DNA of 64,000 nt, from the NCBI RefSeq assembly GCF_947499695.1, contig NZ_CANMPQ010000005.1:62001-126000 (forward strand), given 5' to 3'. Positions 3,205-28,627 of the stretch are shown here, one piece after another. The position numbers and the translations under genes were made by a program. This DNA comes from an uncultured Allomuricauda sp. (GTDB taxonomy: Bacteria > Bacteroidota > Bacteroidia > Flavobacteriales > Flavobacteriaceae). The stretch's first letter is position 1; each line of letters starts with the position of its first letter. The notes beneath the pieces are model-generated. The model did not search any database. It saw only the letters and a list, made by a program, of their open reading frames with translations, and was not told where the DNA came from.

Positions 3205-3515
3205 GATTCAAAGGTTTTTATGATTTTCTCCCTCAAAATGTCCTTCTCCAGTTCGGTTATATCTATAATGTCCTCTTCTCCCCATAATTCCAACTCCCCT
3301 ACCCAAGCATCATTCTTTCCATAATTGATGGAATCGACCCTTAAGTGAAATCTTATAAGATGTTCTCCCAGATCGATTTCCTCTTGTTTGTTATAGTAGT
3401 AAGTAATTGTGTCGCCGGACTCGGTGTAGTCATGTTCCCATGTTATGTCCAGTTCAGGTATAAGGAAGTCCCGAACGTCAACAATTTTATCGTGTGTTGT
3501 TAAGGTAGATTCCAT
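3201..3515 (-). CDS. first gene of the leftward early operon, unknown function
   Basis: 104 residues, acidic, no signal or membrane segment. It contains alternating hydrophobic strands (ITYYYNKQEEIDL, LIRFHLRVDSINYG) that suggest a small beta-rich fold, and a helical C terminus. No family recognised. Its interest is positional: it is the promoter-proximal gene of the leftward operon, facing the divergent repressor gene across a region carrying a good Bacteroidota-type promoter with a repressor-like dyad inside it. This is the cro-like position of temperate phages, though no helix-turn-helix is seen. Confidence 0.6.
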   Translation of the reverse strand: MESTLTTHDKIVDVRDFLIPELDITWEHDYTESGDTITYYYNKQEEIDLGEHLIRFHLRVDSINYGKNDAWVGELELWGEEDIIDITELEKDILREKIIKTFES

Positions 3516-3548
3516 ATATTTGAGTGCTTTTGTTTTTTAAATACAATG

Positions 3549-3580
3549 TAAATATATGTACAACTTTGTAAAGTTCCAAA
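3549..3580 (-). promoter_or_regulatory. leftward early promoter, TTTG-N20-TATATTTA
   Basis: On the minus strand there is TTTG (3577-3580), then exactly 20 bases, then TATATTTA (3549-3556). It matches the Bacteroidota consensus TTTG / TAnnTTTG with one mismatch. It lies 34 bases before the first gene of the leftward operon, and the spacer is occupied by a TGTACA-type dyad. Confidence 0.6.
3557..3572. promoter_or_regulatory. candidate repressor operator TGTACA-N4-TGTAAA
   Basis: A 16-bp element filling most of the spacer of the leftward promoter. The same pattern occurs inside two other predicted promoters of the element (8464-8479 and 8519-8534). A further TGTACA (3587-3592) and two TGAACA copies (3618-3623 and 3628-3633) lie on the repressor side. 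Placement between the promoter elements fits repression by blocking RNA polymerase; the neighbouring HTH protein is the obvious candidate. Confidence 0.5.
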
Positions 3581-3626: not shown

Positions 3627-4118
3627 ATGAACACGGAAGAATTTTTAGAGCTATATGATTCTAGTGGATTGAGCAAAGTAGATTTAGCCCTTGCACTGGA
3701 TATGTCAAGAACTTCCGTTTATAATTGGCTGGGTGGTGGAAATATCCCTAAGAAAAATTGGAAGAGAATCAGGGATGTCCTAAGTAAGAGCCCGGAAGAG
3801 TTAAAAGATCTTGTAGCCAAGAATCTTCAAAAGCAAATGAATGATTATCAAGATTCGCCGGATCAACCAAATACGATTCGGTTAGATTTAAATCTATTGG
3901 ACAGTAAACAAGACACAGGAAGGCTCTTGCTATTTCTTAACAAGAACTTAAACGAATTAAAAGAAGATGTTGCGTTTGGACTATTCTTTGAAAAAATAGA
4001 GAATGCTGCTGTAAATAAATTTAAGAACGCTCTTGTAGAAGATGCTGATCAAGAGTCTTTCACGAAGGAAGAATATATTAAAAAGGTATTGAGCAAAACG
4101 ATCACAAAAGTTAAGTAG
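3627..4118 (+). CDS. HTH repressor, phage CI/Cro-like
   Basis: 163 residues. Residues 14-40 form a helix-turn-helix (LSKVDLALALDMSRTSVYNW) of the XRE/lambda-repressor type. The remaining 120 residues are helical and hydrophilic without the Ser/Lys protease domain of LexA-like CI, so it would not be expected to self-cleave. It lies divergent to the early operon, the classic position of a lysogeny repressor. TGTACA-like half-sites flank its start. Its 3' end overlaps the convergent downstream gene by 8 bases. That it binds the 16-bp dyads is my inference. Confidence 0.75.
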   Translation: MNTEEFLELYDSSGLSKVDLALALDMSRTSVYNWLGGGNIPKKNWKRIRDVLSKSPEELKDLVAKNLQKQMNDYQDSPDQPNTIRLDLNLLDSKQDTGRLLLFLNKNLNELKEDVAFGLFFEKIENAAVNKFKNALVEDADQESFTKEEYIKKVLSKTITKVK

Positions 4119-7495: not shown

Positions 7496-7563
7496 ACCAA
7501 CAATTTCAAAGAACTTTTATTATTTGGGTTTTTAGAGTATTTTTCCTACTCTAAATAACCGTT

Positions 7564-7998
7564 ATGTCTTATATCGAGGACTTTTTCAAGAACGACTTCC
7601 TTAAATCCCTTCTGTTTCCAGCTACGATGATGCCCTTCTGGTATTTATCTATCTACATGATAAACAATGAATTTTATCTCCAAACAGAAATGGCAATATT
7701 GATAATAATTTGTTATGTAATCTGTTTAACATCCCTTTTAATGATGTCTAGTATAATTAGTTTATTTGACAATGATTTTCGTAACCGTAACGATCCACAC
7801 CTAATGATGGGAATTTTTTTGGTGGCCACCATTTTTCTTTTGGTATGGAAGGTGATTTTGTTTTTCCTTGCTTATTCAACACTTTTCTTTTTTGATAACA
7901 AACTGTATTATTACTGGTATATCGTCATATACTTCATACCCTTATTTGTTTTATGGCCTATAGGCTACATCTATAACACAAAGCATGGGCAGGATTAA
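7564..7998 (+). CDS. four-helix membrane protein, unknown
   Basis: 144 residues with four hydrophobic helices, at about 16-32, 38-65, 80-105 and 115-135. It is rich in Phe, Tyr and Ile and ends in a charged tail (NTKHGQD). No family recognised. It starts 68 bases after the GNAT gene and could be co-transcribed with the pair. Small membrane proteins beside toxin modules or on prophages are sometimes superinfection-exclusion factors, but no motif here shows that. Confidence 0.5.
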   Translation: MSYIEDFFKNDFLKSLLFPATMMPFWYLSIYMINNEFYLQTEMAILIIICYVICLTSLLMMSSIISLFDNDFRNRNDPHLMMGIFLVATIFLLVWKVILFFLAYSTLFFFDNKLYYYWYIVIYFIPLFVLWPIGYIYNTKHGQD

Positions 7999-8148
7999 AT
8001 GAATTTGACAACACTTGAATACAAAAAGAATTTTATCATATTCTGGTTTTATCGTCTTCTTTTTCATTCTATTCTCTATTATTTAAGAGTTAATATTAAA
8101 CTTGCTATCCAAGATTCTAGATTTGGTAAGGACATACCTCCCCTATAG
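7999..8148 (+). CDS. possible 49-residue protein with one membrane helix
   Basis: The ATG follows the upstream TAA directly. It encodes MNLTTLEYKKNFIIFWFYRLL and then HSILYYLRVNIKL plus a hydrophilic end. Residues 11-29 could form a membrane helix. The only support is the close position behind another membrane protein gene; it could be a chance frame. Confidence 0.3.
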   Translation: MNLTTLEYKKNFIIFWFYRLLFHSILYYLRVNIKLAIQDSRFGKDIPPL

Positions 8149-8358
8149 AAAAGTATGGCCTTGATTAAAACTTGCTCACCTGAGTTCTGAGTTCGTATAA
8201 TTCACAGATAGCGACAACCTTAGAACACACTATCATTTGAGGTCTTTTTACCACTTCTAAAGTTTGTGGCCCTAGCTGCGTGAATCCTCTTGTACCTACG
8301 CTTGTGCCCTTGCTTTTTTCTTGCACACTATAAAAGGTTATCCGAAAAGTATCTAGCC

Positions 8359-8453
8359 AAAAAATAACCCCTTACGATCTGTGTGAGTCACGTAAGGGGC
8401 GTATATGGTGTACATTTTTCCCACCGAGTTTCTTCCCTCATTCTCACACAATG
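8359..8453 (-). ncRNA. putative short RNA, leftward, 5' end complementary to terminator loop
   Basis: A leftward promoter (8460-8490) would start a transcript near 8453. It ends about 90 bases later at a strong hairpin with a 9-bp stem (8368-8376 with 8391-8399) followed by TTATTTTTT. The 14-base loop contains an 8-base sequence (8380-8387) that is perfectly complementary to bases 8443-8450 near the RNA's own 5' end. The resulting structure is either a pseudoknot or, because the joining loops are only 3 bases, a switch with two exclusive helices. The only frame is 17 codons long and ends inside the hairpin loop. No known RNA family recognised. Confidence 0.45.
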
Positions 8454-8459
8454 ATGAAA

Positions 8460-8490
8460 CAAATGTATATTGTTTTACACTTTTATACAA
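8460..8490 (-). promoter_or_regulatory. leftward promoter TTG-N20-TACATTTG
   Basis: On the minus strand: TTG (8488-8490), 20 bases, then TACATTTG (8460-8467), a perfect -7 element. It faces left into the hairpin at 8368-8399. Bases 8464-8479 form a TGTATA-N4-TTTACA dyad overlapping the promoter. Confidence 0.55.
8464..8479. promoter_or_regulatory. candidate operator, imperfect dyad
   Basis: TGTATA-TTGT-TTTACA, the 16-bp dyad pattern with one mismatch per half relative to the TGTACA copies. It overlaps the -7 element of the leftward RNA promoter, a position from which a bound repressor would block transcription. Confidence 0.4.
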
Positions 8491-8506
8491 TTTTATTTAC
8501 ATTTTA

Positions 8507-8538
8507 TTTGTTTACTTATGTACAGTTTTGTACATTAG
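8507..8538 (+). promoter_or_regulatory. rightward promoter TTTG-N20-TACATTAG
   Basis: TTTG (8507-8510), exactly 20 bases, then TACATTAG (8531-8538), one mismatch from TAnnTTTG. It is back to back with the leftward promoter, 16 bases away, and would drive the second short RNA and possibly the gene train from 8702. Confidence 0.5.
8519..8534. promoter_or_regulatory. candidate repressor operator TGTACA-GTTT-TGTACA
   Basis: The best copy of the 16-bp dyad, lying between the -33 and -7 elements of the rightward promoter, as at the early operon promoter (3557-3572). Confidence 0.5.
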
Positions 8539-8544
8539 CATCAG

Positions 8545-8640
8545 AATCACGCTAGGGGAGTGAACTACGGAAAAAAGTTTTTTGGTTGGTTAGTTTAGTT
8601 TAAGCCCCTTGCTCCCCTAGAGTTTAAGGGGCTATTTCTT
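8545..8640 (+). ncRNA. putative short RNA or leader, rightward, 5' end complementary to terminator loop
   Basis: A transcript from the rightward promoter would begin near 8545. It soon carries CTAGGGGAG (8552-8560), which is a perfect 9-base complement of CTCCCCTAG (8612-8620). That second copy sits in the loop of a hairpin with an 8-bp stem (AGCCCCTT 8603-8610 with AAGGGGCT 8626-8633) followed by ATTTCTTTT. This is the same layout as the leftward RNA, with different bases. Joining loops are 1 and 5 bases, so the two helices may compete, giving a terminator/anti-terminator switch ahead of the 8702 gene train. Which state dominates cannot be read from sequence. Confidence 0.45.
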
Positions 8641-8701
8641 TTAGGAAAAGTGAGGTTGTTGAAATCCTAAAAGAGTTTTTTCTCCTTCCCGATGTGACCT
8701 G

Positions 8702-9088
8702 ATGGGACATGAAAGGGAAGGGGATTTTAAGAAGACAGTTAAAAATCAATATATGTATCAGACAGCACGAAGCCAGAGAAGTTTTTTAAGGGAAAGGGGA
8801 TTGATGAGCAAAGGACAGGGAAAACTATCCGTATTCAGTAAACGTCAAATGATAGTTGATAAGGAATCAGGGAAGTTAATCGAGATTCGACATACCGGAA
8901 TCCCTTTTAAAAACTCAGGTTCTGCATTCAAGTTCATGGCTAGACATGGGATACGTTCTGGCACTATTATTCTGAATGGATGGAAACCTCCAAAAGGATT
9001 TGCCTTAAAAGCTGAGAAAAGCAAAATAAAGAACAAGACCAGCAATTTATCACGAAAGCAACGTGACATAATAATGGAGCTTCAATAA
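8702..9088 (+). CDS. basic protein of unknown function, first of the rightward train
   Basis: 128 residues, very basic (many K and R), no membrane segment. The central part (AFKFMARHGIRSGTIILNGWKPPKGFAL) suggests a small mixed alpha/beta fold and the C terminus is a basic helix (SNLSRKQRDIIM). Nucleic-acid binding is plausible from charge alone. No family recognised. It lies just behind the putative switch RNA and opens a series of closely spaced small genes reaching to 10890. Confidence 0.5.
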   Translation: MGHEREGDFKKTVKNQYMYQTARSQRSFLRERGLMSKGQGKLSVFSKRQMIVDKESGKLIEIRHTGIPFKNSGSAFKFMARHGIRSGTIILNGWKPPKGFALKAEKSKIKNKTSNLSRKQRDIIMELQ

Positions 9089-9095
9089 AAAGAAT

Positions 9096-9257
9096 ATGAC
9101 CAGAGAAGCATACGCAAAGGAACTGATAACTGATTTTGGCAAGACAGATGCCATCAAGAGTCTGATTAAGGATATAGAGTCCTTAAAGCGCAGAACGGGC
9201 TGTAGAAAACTCTTATCATTCTTCTCTGACACACTTGAGATAGTAAGGACTAATTAA
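9096..9257 (+). CDS. 53-residue small protein
   Basis: Encodes MTREAYAKELITDFGKTDAI, then a basic helical segment (ESLKRRTGCRK). It starts 7 bases after the previous stop. Predicted helical, soluble, one Cys. Support is position in a regular series of small genes each preceded by an AACCAAATAA-like or similar spacer. Function unknown. Confidence 0.5.
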   Translation: MTREAYAKELITDFGKTDAIKSLIKDIESLKRRTGCRKLLSFFSDTLEIVRTN

Positions 9258-9269
9258 AAACCAAATAAG

Positions 9270-9425
9270 ATGAAAAGAGAAAGAATTATAGAGGTTTTTC
9301 AAAAATGGAATAAGGATTTTAACGAGAACAGGGAGGAATACCGTGATGAGTCTGCAAACGATTCTCTGGAATATGCCGAAAATCAAGCTGATCATTTCCT
9401 TGAATTATACAATTCAATAGACTAA
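9270..9425 (+). CDS. 51-residue acidic small protein
   Basis: Encodes MKRERIIEVFQKWNKDFNEN and an acidic remainder (DESANDSLEYAENQADHFLEL). Strongly helical and negatively charged, as in many small phage inhibitor proteins, though no target can be named. It is preceded by AAAAACCAAATAAG; the next gene is preceded by the very similar TAAAACCAAATAAC, a repeated spacer that suggests a shared translation signal. Confidence 0.5.
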   Translation: MKRERIIEVFQKWNKDFNENREEYRDESANDSLEYAENQADHFLELYNSID

Positions 9426-9436
9426 AACCAAATAAC

Positions 9437-9616
9437 ATGGAAACAACAATAAAAGAGTTTAAGTGGGAAGTTCAATATAAAGGACAATCAGTTGGGAAGA
9501 ACTTTTTTACTAAAAAGGAAGCTGTTAAGGAATGGAATCGCCTTTGGAATTTGAATTTATACGGATACACCGTATCTAAAATCAAATCAGCAATATCCTC
9601 TGCTATAGGGGAGTAA
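9437..9616 (+). CDS. 59-residue small protein
   Basis: Encodes METTIKEFKWEVQYKGQSVG followed by NFFTKKEAVKEWNRLWN. The pattern strand, strand, helix resembles a small alpha/beta domain; Trp-rich. It starts 11 bases after the previous stop, behind the same ACCAAATAA spacer. Function unknown. Confidence 0.5.
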   Translation: METTIKEFKWEVQYKGQSVGKNFFTKKEAVKEWNRLWNLNLYGYTVSKIKSAISSAIGE

Positions 9617-10910: not shown

Positions 10911-11174
10911 ATGACCAAAGAGGAATTGATAGAAACACAACTTCAGGCAATGATAATATTCGCTGCCAACGACCACATGATGGACGTAAAGGAGTGTGCT
11001 AAATTCCTTCGTTGTAATGAAAGGACAGTCACCAATCGCATCAAGAGCAATAACAAGCACAACAAAATAATCGCCGAGTACAAAGGTGGGTGGAGAATAC
11101 CCAAGCTACAGTTCTACAAAAAACTCATCAAAGAGTTTGATAATACTCGTTCCACTTCTCTAAAAGCCGTTTAG
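10911..11174 (+). CDS. excisionase-like HTH protein
   Basis: 87 residues. Residues 25-47 form an HTH_17/MerR-like winged helix start (DVKECAKFLRCNERTVTNRI) and a following WRIPKLQF is the wing typical of excisionases. It lies beside the integrase gene but converges on it, with a 47-base overlap of the two 3' ends. The likely role is directing excision of the element or controlling integrase. A general small DNA-binding regulator is the alternative. Confidence 0.65.
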   Translation: MTKEELIETQLQAMIIFAANDHMMDVKECAKFLRCNERTVTNRIKSNNKHNKIIAEYKGGWRIPKLQFYKKLIKEFDNTRSTSLKAV

Positions 11175-12324
11175 CGTGCTGCTTTGGTGTTACCTTGATA
11201 TATTTCAAGAAGTTCTTTTCCGTGGTATGCCCGGTAATGTTCATAATCGTGAGGGTATCGATCCCCATTAAATAGTTATTGGTGGCAAATGACCTTCTAC
11301 AGGTGTGGGAGCTTACCATTTTCCATTTTTCCATCACACCTTTTTCAAGTCGATTTGTTTCAGGGTCTCTCCTACTCCCATATACCTTTTCCTTGATTCC
11401 CGCCTTTTCACATACTTTCTTTATCACCCTGTTGAACTCAACATCACTGCACCTTTCTGGCAATCCATTTTTAATGACTTCCTTTACCTGGGGATGGAGT
11501 GGAATAACTACCCTTCTACCCGTCTTTTCGGTTTCAATCTCAATCAGCTCCCCTTTTGGCTTGAACTTATCCCAATCACTTACACGAAGTCCGGTCCATA
11601 GTCCAATTATTGCCCAATCCCTGACCTTCCTTTCCCTGTCCGTAAGGTCATCAAACTTAAATAGTATGTCAATCTCCTTTTCATTCAAGAAGATGCTTTC
11701 ACTCTTCTCCACCGGAACAAAAAAGTCTATGGAAAATACCTGTTCGTTTACTGGATAACCGTCCTGTTTAGCGTAGGCAGCGAACTTCTTTAGGTTTTTG
11801 ATATAGCCCCCTATCGTATTGGTTGCCAAGCCGTGTTCCTGTTCCAAGTATTCAATGAAACTCCTATGAAAGCTCAAGTCCAGTCCATCAAACTTTACTT
11901 TGGCAAACTGGTCAAGATATCCTTTGGTTGTATTATAGGATTGTATTGTGCGCTTTTTTAAAGGGTCTCCGTTCCTTAGCCTTATCTTGTGAATATCCTC
12001 CAGCAACTTTTCGACATAATCATTGAACGAGATAACCTTTTTACTTCTGAACTGTTCCCTTAATCCATCCATGGAAGGTTCCTCCCCTGACATCTTGCAA
12101 GAATTGACATAGGTGTTTACCTTGTCCTGGATTCTTTGAAGAACAGCCTTGATTGCTGAAACATTATGATCACCCTTTTTTCTTTTTGGATATTGGCCCT
12201 CAAAATCCCAATCATTGGGGTGTATTTTTTCACCTGTCCCCAACTTCAATGATTTACCGTTTATTCGGTAAATAAGATAGATTGGTGTATCTTTATTTGA
12301 CTTTGGTTCTTTTAGATAAAACAT
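11128..12324 (-). CDS. tyrosine integrase
   Basis: 398 residues, full length. The N-terminal arm-binding region (about 1-95) is followed by a SAM-like core-binding domain (about 100-195) and the catalytic domain. Visible catalytic residues are Arg247 (GLWTGLRVSDW), His340 and Arg343 (SSHTCRRSFA), His366 (TGHTTEKNF) and Tyr375 (FLKYI), so the enzyme should be active. It is of the Bacteroidota phage/ICE integrase type. Its position at the right end marks the element's boundary, so the attachment site should lie within a few hundred bases to the right. Confidence 0.93.
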   Translation of the reverse strand: MFYLKEPKSNKDTPIYLIYRINGKSLKLGTGEKIHPNDWDFEGQYPKRKKGDHNVSAIKAVLQRIQDKVNTYVNSCKMSGEEPSMDGLREQFRSKKVISFNDYVEKLLEDIHKIRLRNGDPLKKRTIQSYNTTKGYLDQFAKVKFDGLDLSFHRSFIEYLEQEHGLATNTIGGYIKNLKKFAAYAKQDGYPVNEQVFSIDFFVPVEKSESIFLNEKEIDILFKFDDLTDRERKVRDWAIIGLWTGLRVSDWDKFKPKGELIEIETEKTGRRVVIPLHPQVKEVIKNGLPERCSDVEFNRVIKKVCEKAGIKEKVYGSRRDPETNRLEKGVMEKWKMVSSHTCRRSFATNNYLMGIDTLTIMNITGHTTEKNFLKYIKVTPKQHAKRLLEKWNEYYQTL

Positions 12325-28147: not shown

Positions 28148-28627
28148 TTATTTTTTAATTAATTTTCGTTTGCGGAAAAGACCAAGTCCAAAAAATCGAG
28201 CGGTCGGGTAATTGTAAATTACAATACAAGCCCCCAGCTCAATTAAGTTTTTGTTTACCAACCAGTAATTGCCCTCGACATTAATCTGCTGAATTCCAGG
28301 AAACGAGGGATGGGCCAGATAGTACAGGCCTAAAAGGCAAATTCCCACCAACGCTCCTTTCTTTTCAAAAATTCCAAGCAAAAATGTAATGCCCACAACC
28401 AAAAGTGCGGTCACATTCAAGTTATCTACCCAGTCGATAATGGAAGGTGCTGTTAAGGAATAAAAAATGGACTTGAAAGGTCCCTGGGCTGAGGCTAAAT
28501 ATCCAAATGAAGTCCATTCTGGATTATACAGCTTTACAATGCCCTCATATAGGAAGTGCCATCCTATTAAAACTCTTAATAGTGTAATGCTGATTTTGAC
28601 CTTACGGTCGTGTGCTGTGGTGACCAT
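28148..28627 (-). CDS. DoxX-family membrane protein
   Basis: 159 residues from the ATG; a TTG 27 bases upstream is possible but unneeded. Four membrane helices with the DoxX start RVLIGWHFLYEGIVKLYNP and Pro/Trp pattern. DoxX members are linked to quinone or thiosulfate-related redox chemistry. It precedes the Tat-exported oxidoreductase by 4 bases, so it may pass electrons from that enzyme to quinones. Confidence 0.85.
   Translation of the reverse strand: MVTTAHDRKVKISITLLRVLIGWHFLYEGIVKLYNPEWTSFGYLASAQGPFKSIFYSLTAPSIIDWVDNLNVTALLVVGITFLLGIFEKKGALVGICLLGLYYLAHPSFPGIQQINVEGNYWLVNKNLIELGACIVIYNYPTARFFGLGLFRKRKLIKK

Follow-up and report, generated by a model that had tools for sequence, protein, structure and literature searches.

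The intergenic region around positions 8359 to 8640 of the window (the whole stretch of flavobacterial DNA analysed here, 64,000 nucleotides) raises the question of why two short RNAs, predicted to diverge from back-to-back promoters, should each carry near the 5' end a perfect complement of its own terminator loop, and whether such a segment would work in a terminator switch or close the RNA into a stable fold.

Two Predicted Divergent RNAs in a Prophage

The region belongs to a prophage of the tailed-phage type, which comprises the first 12.3 kb of the window and the 20 kb before it and was recognized by its portal, HK97-type capsid and prohead protease families and by an integrase (table 1). 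Genes past the integrase read as host genes, for example for carotenoid synthesis and aconitase, and no tRNA or tmRNA was found in the window. The HTH repressor-like gene is divergent from a leftward early operon, the first ORF of which starts at 3515.

The initial annotation proposed two short divergent RNAs, and the features of the locus agree with it: candidate -7 elements (the Bacteroidota-type consensus is TAnnTTTG), 5' hairpins and terminators occur on both strands, and a homologous pair of predicted RNAs is present in a second prophage, in genome G043. The minus RNA would start near 8454-8456 and end in the U run after 8368, and the plus RNA would start near 8543. The minus terminator stretch, 8359-8404, folds with a z of -4.4 against shuffles, and the U run of the plus terminator is broken (AUUUCUUUU). 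A simple scanner run over 7500-9500 returned one terminator (1.2 expected) and seven promoter-like sites (6.4 expected), being ill-suited to this locus with its loop limit of 3-8 and its sigma-70 hexamers.

Both complementarities were borne out exactly when the sequence was checked. In the minus RNA, 8443-8450 (CTCACACA) is a perfect 8-bp complement of 8380-8387 (TGTGTGAG), and in the plus RNA, 8552-8560 (CTAGGGGAG) is a perfect 9-bp complement of 8612-8620 (CTCCCCTAG). In each case a small hairpin at the predicted start of the RNA has the 5' partner as its loop, the downstream partner lies inside the loop of a terminator-like hairpin, and a linker of about 35-40 nt joins the two hairpins. The two RNAs had been described as sharing this design and no sequence, which has to be qualified for the terminator stem, GCCCCUU/AAGGGG, common to both.

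Table 1. Coordinates, in the window, of the features discussed
Feature	Position	Strand	Basis or remark
Predicted minus small RNA	8359..8456	-	promoter element, 5' hairpin, terminator hairpin, homologous RNA in G043
Minus RNA 5' hairpin, UCAUU[GUGUGAG]AAUGA	8438..8454, loop 8443-8449	-	sequence
Minus RNA terminator hairpin	8368..8399	-	CUCACAC (8381-8387) in its loop is complementary to the 5' loop
Minus promoter -7 element, TACATTTG	8460..8467	-	perfect TAnnTTTG match
Plus promoter -7 element, TACATTAG	8531..8538	+	TAnnTTTG with one mismatch; TATCTTAG in G043
Predicted plus small RNA / putative attenuated leader	8543..8640	+	similarity to G043; same order of hairpin, motif and terminator
Plus RNA 5' hairpin, UCAC-G[CUAGGGG]A-GUGA	8547..8563, loop 8552-8558	+	sequence
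Plus RNA terminator hairpin	8603..8633	+	CCCCUAG (8614-8620) pairs with the 5' loop
Flavobacterial pre-terminator motif, AGTTTTTTGGTTGGTTA	8576..8592	+	between the plus 5' hairpin and terminator
Second hairpin, CTCCTTCCC...GGGAAGGGG	8682..8723	+	between plus terminator and first ORF; by eye
First ORF past the plus RNA, encoding a basic 111-aa protein, pI 11.3	8753..9088	+	74% identical in G043
HTH repressor-like gene	3627..4118	+	PHROG transcription-regulation families, E 2e-5 to 2e-3; Pfam HTH_3 below cut-off
Prophage tyrosine integrase	11128..12324	-	family matches
Palindrome TGTA-N8-TACA	8464..8479	.	overlaps minus -7 element
Palindrome TGTA-N8-TACA	8519..8534	.	within ATGTAC-N6-GTACAT, 8518-8535; overlaps plus -7 element
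Third palindrome TGTA-N8-TACA	3547..3562	.	between early minus operon and repressor gene

The 111-aa protein encoded after the plus RNA was found in two genomes only among those searched; it had no match in PHROGs, nor in Pfam when a shortened 94-aa form and the G043 homologue were used, and its AlphaFold model (mean pLDDT 46) was left unused. A position directly after a leader recalls that of small basic phage antiterminators. The hairpin at 8682-8723, which has a counterpart at the equivalent place in the G043 alignment, is a possible leader element for the binding of a protein or the ribosome. On the other side, the larger window ORFs downstream of the minus RNA run in the opposite direction for about 1.5 kb, with a putative 53-aa minus-strand ORF at 8165-8326, and the minus RNA is probably an RNA end-product in this prophage; in G043 an ORF that reads as RNase-H-like lies about 0.2 kb downstream of it.

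In the window prophage, the promoters of both RNAs carry one and the same operator-like palindrome, which recurs in the repressor/early region. The window (64 kb) contains four copies of TGTA-N8-TACA where 0.82 would be expected, and none of 100 shuffles reached four; the fourth copy, at 28213, is outside the prophage, and the 20 kb before the window have none. The two promoter palindromes were first noticed by eye, the copy in the repressor region being the independent one. In G043 a different palindrome stands at two of the three equivalent places. With up to two mismatches, GATAGA-N6-TCTATC is not above chance there, whereas ATAGA-N6-TCTAT occurs three times in 39 kb against 0.06 expected: one copy lies in the repressor/early region, one at the promoter of the plus RNA and one close to a gene start at L154:16894. 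Because the promoter palindromes were found by eye and the G043 pattern was trimmed post hoc, these expectations are fair only for the extra sites. The G043 minus RNA promoter has no exact copy, and the divergent gene of G043 matches HTH_3 below the Pfam cut-off. From these arrangements we infer that the prophage repressor binds the palindromes and controls both RNAs in the window prophage, and that the plus RNA, if not both, is under such control in G043. The prophages appear to be heteroimmune.

Predicted Loop Pairing, Its Conservation and Its Alternatives

G043 was the only strong DNA match besides the source genome among 148 relatives. Positions 8476-8634 are 74% identical to it over 161 aligned positions, and the two prophages have regulatory and early genes in common. 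In a MAFFT alignment of both intergenic regions, the two predicted RNAs can be aligned over their full length and the minus 5' loop is free of gaps; MAFFT placed a gap inside the minus terminator loop, the register of which was set by hand on complementarity, a freedom for which the shuffle probabilities given below allow. The minus loops read GUGUGAG/CUCACAC in the window and AUGAUGG/CCAUCAU in G043: four of the seven pairs are changed on both sides, three are unchanged and none is broken. The initial annotation had expected homologous loci to keep the complementarity through compensation, and in the minus RNA the loop pairing has indeed been kept by compensatory change, as judged from two sequences and with the hand-set register. 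The 5' stem of this RNA is likewise unbroken, with two pairs unchanged, two U-A pairs changed to U-G and one A-U to G-C, and the six outer pairs of its terminator stem are invariant and so uninformative. In the plus RNA all seven kissing pairs are the same in G043, so that this helix yields no covariation; the 5' stem of the plus RNA has two unchanged pairs, one U-A changed to U-G, one C-G changed on both sides to U-A, none broken, and by eye a further G-C pair in G043.

Each of the four predicted RNAs, plus and minus in either prophage, thus contains two hairpins with complementary loops. Since the 5' segment occupies a hairpin loop and its partner the terminator loop, the two can kiss loop to loop in a manner compatible with both stems, and each RNA is best read, on its sequence, as an intramolecular kissing-loop RNA in which a 7-nt 5' loop pairs with the terminator loop, rather than as a set of competing helices. 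Of the two outcomes offered in the initial annotation, a pseudoknotted stable RNA would accordingly fit both RNAs. The competition that it expected from short joining loops finds no support, the linkers being about 35-40 nt long and the kissing helix able to coexist with both stems. The 7-bp loop duplex alone is worth -9.0 kcal/mol in the minus RNA, -11.3 in the plus RNA and -7.5 in the G043 minus RNA, and the 5' hairpins of the window prophage are weak on their own (-2.5 kcal/mol, plus; -1.5, minus). Whole-RNA nested folds are slightly better than shuffles (z -1.8 and -1.0), but nested folding cannot score a kissing helix, and these values speak neither for nor against the kiss. Co-folding of the plus with the minus RNA gains 4.2 and 7.6 kcal/mol over the monomers.

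An attenuator switch, in which the 5' segment would pair with the nascent terminator and alternative helices would decide between stop and read-through, is in our judgment unlikely. The plus terminator does stand ahead of the ORF at 8753, inspection by eye showed no further TAnnTTTG promoter in the interval, and in the plus RNA an alternative pairing of AGGGG with the CCCCU arm of the terminator, also possible by eye in G043, is the minimum-energy fold; the self-timing terminator switch suggested at first could therefore operate in this RNA. Yet even the alternative fold leaves a terminator, CCCCUAGAGUUUAAGGGG. The minus RNA has no such fold and, but for the putative 53-aa ORF, no larger window ORF in its own direction for about 1.5 kb downstream. 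Because the competing fold exists in the plus RNA only, competition is not the shared design; the conserved feature common to both RNAs is the loop-loop pairing of two intact hairpins.

The loops might instead act in trans, pairing between molecules either in dimers or as a free RNA with a nascent leader, for immunity or copy control at the RNA level as with P4 CI or ColE1; this seems to us less likely still. Fully paired 7-nt loops are of the classic kissing size, and the minus loop pair differs at four of seven pairs between prophages with differing operators, as specificity determinants would. No antisense gene was seen, however, and within the 20 kb before the window and the 12.4 kb after its start the loop 8-mers occur only at this locus, save for one TGTGTGAG at -15716. 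With a complement in the same molecule 35-40 nt away, pairing in cis should win over pairing in trans.

The chance of such loop matches was estimated from 1,165,476 bases (the window and collected loci, leaving out the four copies L001, L010, L011 and L152 and counting the G043 locus twice, as L003 and L153). For each of the 1049 terminator-like hairpins we determined the longest run of nucleotides in its loop that could pair with the loop of a hairpin upstream, with shuffled loops as the null. Matches of at least 8 nt were found at four hairpins against 1.3 expected, two of the four being the plus and minus RNAs and the others belonging to L069 and, with a 4-nt linker, to the viral contig L149. 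At 7 nt or more there were nine against 5.4 expected, a count in which the G043 minus RNA figures twice and the G043 plus RNA, scored at 6 instead of 7 with loop letters absorbed into its stem, is missing. This general excess is small, so the kissing design is not a general property of terminators. Shuffling the terminator loop gave p values of 0.0006 for the minus RNA, 0.0010 for the plus RNA and 0.0013 for the G043 minus RNA with strict 7-nt loops, and of 0.0006, 0.0005 and 0.0065, respectively, with looser 11-nt loops. The pairing of the 5' segment with the terminator loop, to which the initial annotation drew attention, looks selected. That the two RNAs are ordinary leader terminators with coincidental complementarities is most improbable. 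The small overall excess does show that chance can produce long matches, but both members of this adjacent pair are among the four best of 1049, and in the G043 minus RNA the corresponding loops match perfectly over 7 nt with other letters. As a separate observation, the L149 case (plus strand, around 3420-3480) consists of two adjacent hairpins with a complementarity of 9 nt between their loops (CGGTTAGGT/ACCTAACCG).

A Pre-Terminator Motif in Flavobacterial RNAs

The exact 17-mer AGTTTTTTGGTTGGTTA, closely followed by a terminator hairpin, is found in the plus RNA and in its G043 counterpart, and is missing from the minus RNA. A scan of GTDB genome contigs returned at least 119 exact matches in at least 117 stretches. 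Among the 119 matches listed, 95 have a terminator hairpin close behind them; the corresponding figures are 5 of 418 for offset control positions and 0 of 21 for matches in viral contigs. Titles were available for 80 of the 117 listed stretches; 65 of these have the terminator, and 64 of the 65 are Bacteroidota by title, mostly Flavobacteriaceae, the remaining one being a Limnohabitans MAG. In the window genome, the 16-mer core occurs twice exactly (a chromosomal copy and the prophage RNA) and twice with one mismatch, and the reversed 16-mer, used as a control, occurs twice within one mismatch. In view of this control, what distinguishes the motif family is its terminator context and not the number of copies. 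The site at L002:1513-1529, in the window's own genome, is an example of those in L014-L130.

Several groups can be told apart by eye. Flavobacterium RNAs combine the motif with a TAnnTTTG-type promoter and a 5' hairpin, and Nonlabens RNAs lie behind sigma-54-like TTGGCAC-N5-TTG sites. In 18 of 26 rows, a count that left out L001, L008 and L010-L013, Muricauda-type copies lie exactly 31 nt after a lipoprotein-like gene; they have a small hairpin with compensation (AUAGU..ACUAU, AUGGU..ACCAU). Other copies follow genes that read as uvrA and as RNA-helicase-like. A coding peptide in the motif was considered and rejected, the frame being closed by stops in other copies, by eye. At the motif, no Rfam family reached the gathering score in the loci scanned, and a search of 5.39 million papers for the literal string brought up nothing but an unrelated one on a chicken gene; the motif is possibly an undescribed RNA element.

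In the motif-bearing chromosomal RNAs, the loop match to the RNA's own terminator is at most 6 nt (L019, L053, L071, L085 and L112). Matches of 6 nt are common by chance (34 observed against 27.7 expected in the chance scan), and kissing is therefore not a trait of the motif family.

Further observations concern the neighbourhood of some copies. Two Nonlabens loci, L025 and L048, have two tandem small-RNA-like units about 50-60 nt upstream of the motif; sigma-54-like promoters (TTTGGCA.GGG..TTG), immediately preceded by a palindrome of the TTATG..CGCATAATA type, stand before both units in L025 and one in L048. L051:4240-4329 is an Rfam Flavo-1 RNA (71.8 bits), encoded on the strand opposite the motif at a distance of about 1.4 kb.

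Relatives, Known RNA Classes and a Proposed Role

The divergent pair was found in two prophages only; the searches covered genomes of the genus (71), the family (397) and the order (395) as well as IMG/VR, INPHARED and PLSDB. The protein of the ORF at 8753 matched its own genome and G043 among the 71 genus genomes and its own alone among the 397 family genomes, with no match in IMG/VR (searched twice), phages or plasmids; a profile search of the 395 order genomes added to its own match three weak ones, rejected as thioesterase-like genes by reading. The DNA of the pair gave something at E <= 1 in 145 of the 148 relatives, where matches outside the source genome and G043 were dismissed as short-motif or AT-rich; at E <= 1e-7 it matched its own genome alone among the 397 family genomes. 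It had no match among phages. The literal plus-RNA pattern was not found in IMG/VR. Alignments of the prophage genes A3 and A2, each searched in 70 genus genomes, had matches in two and four genomes; the two new A2 loci and a related IMG/VR phage (L161, part of a contig) held no convincing RNA pair, single 7-nt loop matches in L219 and L161 being judged chance. In 20 stretches beside integrase relatives, taken from about 60 listed matches, none of 192 terminators had a loop pairing of 8 nt or more, and the two with 7 nt were also put down to chance.

The initial annotation could assign the layout to no RNA class. This stands insofar as Rfam 15 has no match at the gathering threshold in the window and, up to E 5, nothing overlapping the RNAs in L001 and L003, and it is tempered by the widespread flavobacterial terminator-proximal motif in the plus RNA. 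In three host-copy loci the one sub-threshold Rfam match was RcsR1, which scored 22.4 bits where 60 are required and lay antisense to the L009 terminator.

Nearest in working principle are RydC, ColE1 RNAI/RNAII, HK022 put and P4 CI, an analogy drawn with sequences compared via Rfam only. RydC is an Hfq-bound enterobacterial sRNA forming an H-type pseudoknot; such pseudoknotted sRNAs are also short, with the 5' part tied into the 3' fold by long-range pairing, whereas here two complete hairpins would kiss, one of them a terminator, and in Bacteroidota. ColE1 RNAI and RNAII likewise have fully paired 7-nt hairpin loops, but these pair between two RNAs, and here both loops are in one. The HK022 put leader RNAs are short, two-hairpin RNAs at divergent early promoters, as here, and are not known to end in a terminator, where the present pair is predicted to be terminator-ended. 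Phage P4 also has complementary segments within a prematurely terminated leader, and differs in using a processed CI RNA.

The chromosomal flavobacterial AGUUUUUUGGUUGGUUA RNAs resemble the plus RNA in having the motif directly before the terminator and, in many cases by eye, a 5' hairpin, and differ from it in their shorter loop matches. Their Flavobacterium group possibly includes Rfp18 of F. psychrophilum, described as a flavobacterial sRNA conserved within the genus (PMC9723704). The Bacteroides sRNAs FopS and GibS are Bacteroidota sRNAs with a conserved single-stranded stretch followed by a terminator at the 3' end (PMC11697453); their 5' region is there described as single-stranded, unlike the 5' hairpins here, and the present RNAs had no Rfam hit. 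We found no description of the present kissing design in the literature searched, which lay mostly outside subscription journals. We regard the pair as a variant of structured phage regulatory RNA, known from two examples only.

We consider it reasonably probable, from sequence features, that these are two repressor-controlled small RNAs whose ends are joined by kissing loops, the plus RNA being also an attenuated operon leader. When repression is lost, both divergent promoters would fire; transcription on induction is suggested by the position of the palindromes over the -7 elements, where a repressor would be expected to bind. In each transcript of about 95 nt, the 5' hairpin would fold at once and the terminator next, and the 5' loop would then kiss the terminator loop and close the RNA into a ring-like fold. 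The kiss may guard both RNA ends, and the linker, held as a ring, may be the working part. Since the plus linker is the host-type element AGUUUUUUGGUUGGUUA, the plus RNA probably competes with the host RNAs bearing that element for their partner, whether protein or mRNA. As its terminator stands ahead of the rightward operon with no other promoter visible by eye, the plus RNA is probably also an attenuated leader, and read-through past the terminator would serve the operon starting at 8753.

A bolder proposal, which we think improbable, treats the self-kissing loops as an exchangeable address. They would close in cis when the RNA is alone and pair in trans with transcripts of a related phage or of a second genome, and would be swapped as a unit with the protein operators, adding an RNA layer to immunity; the plus RNA would in addition hijack the host motif. 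If true, it would be a new kind of phage regulatory RNA. To our knowledge, the structured small RNAs of Bacteroidota phages seem little charted. The pair has led to a motif common to chromosomal flavobacterial RNAs, for which scanning the loci with Rfam gave nothing at the gathering score, and it offers a compact and easily tested case of an RNA architecture under phage control.
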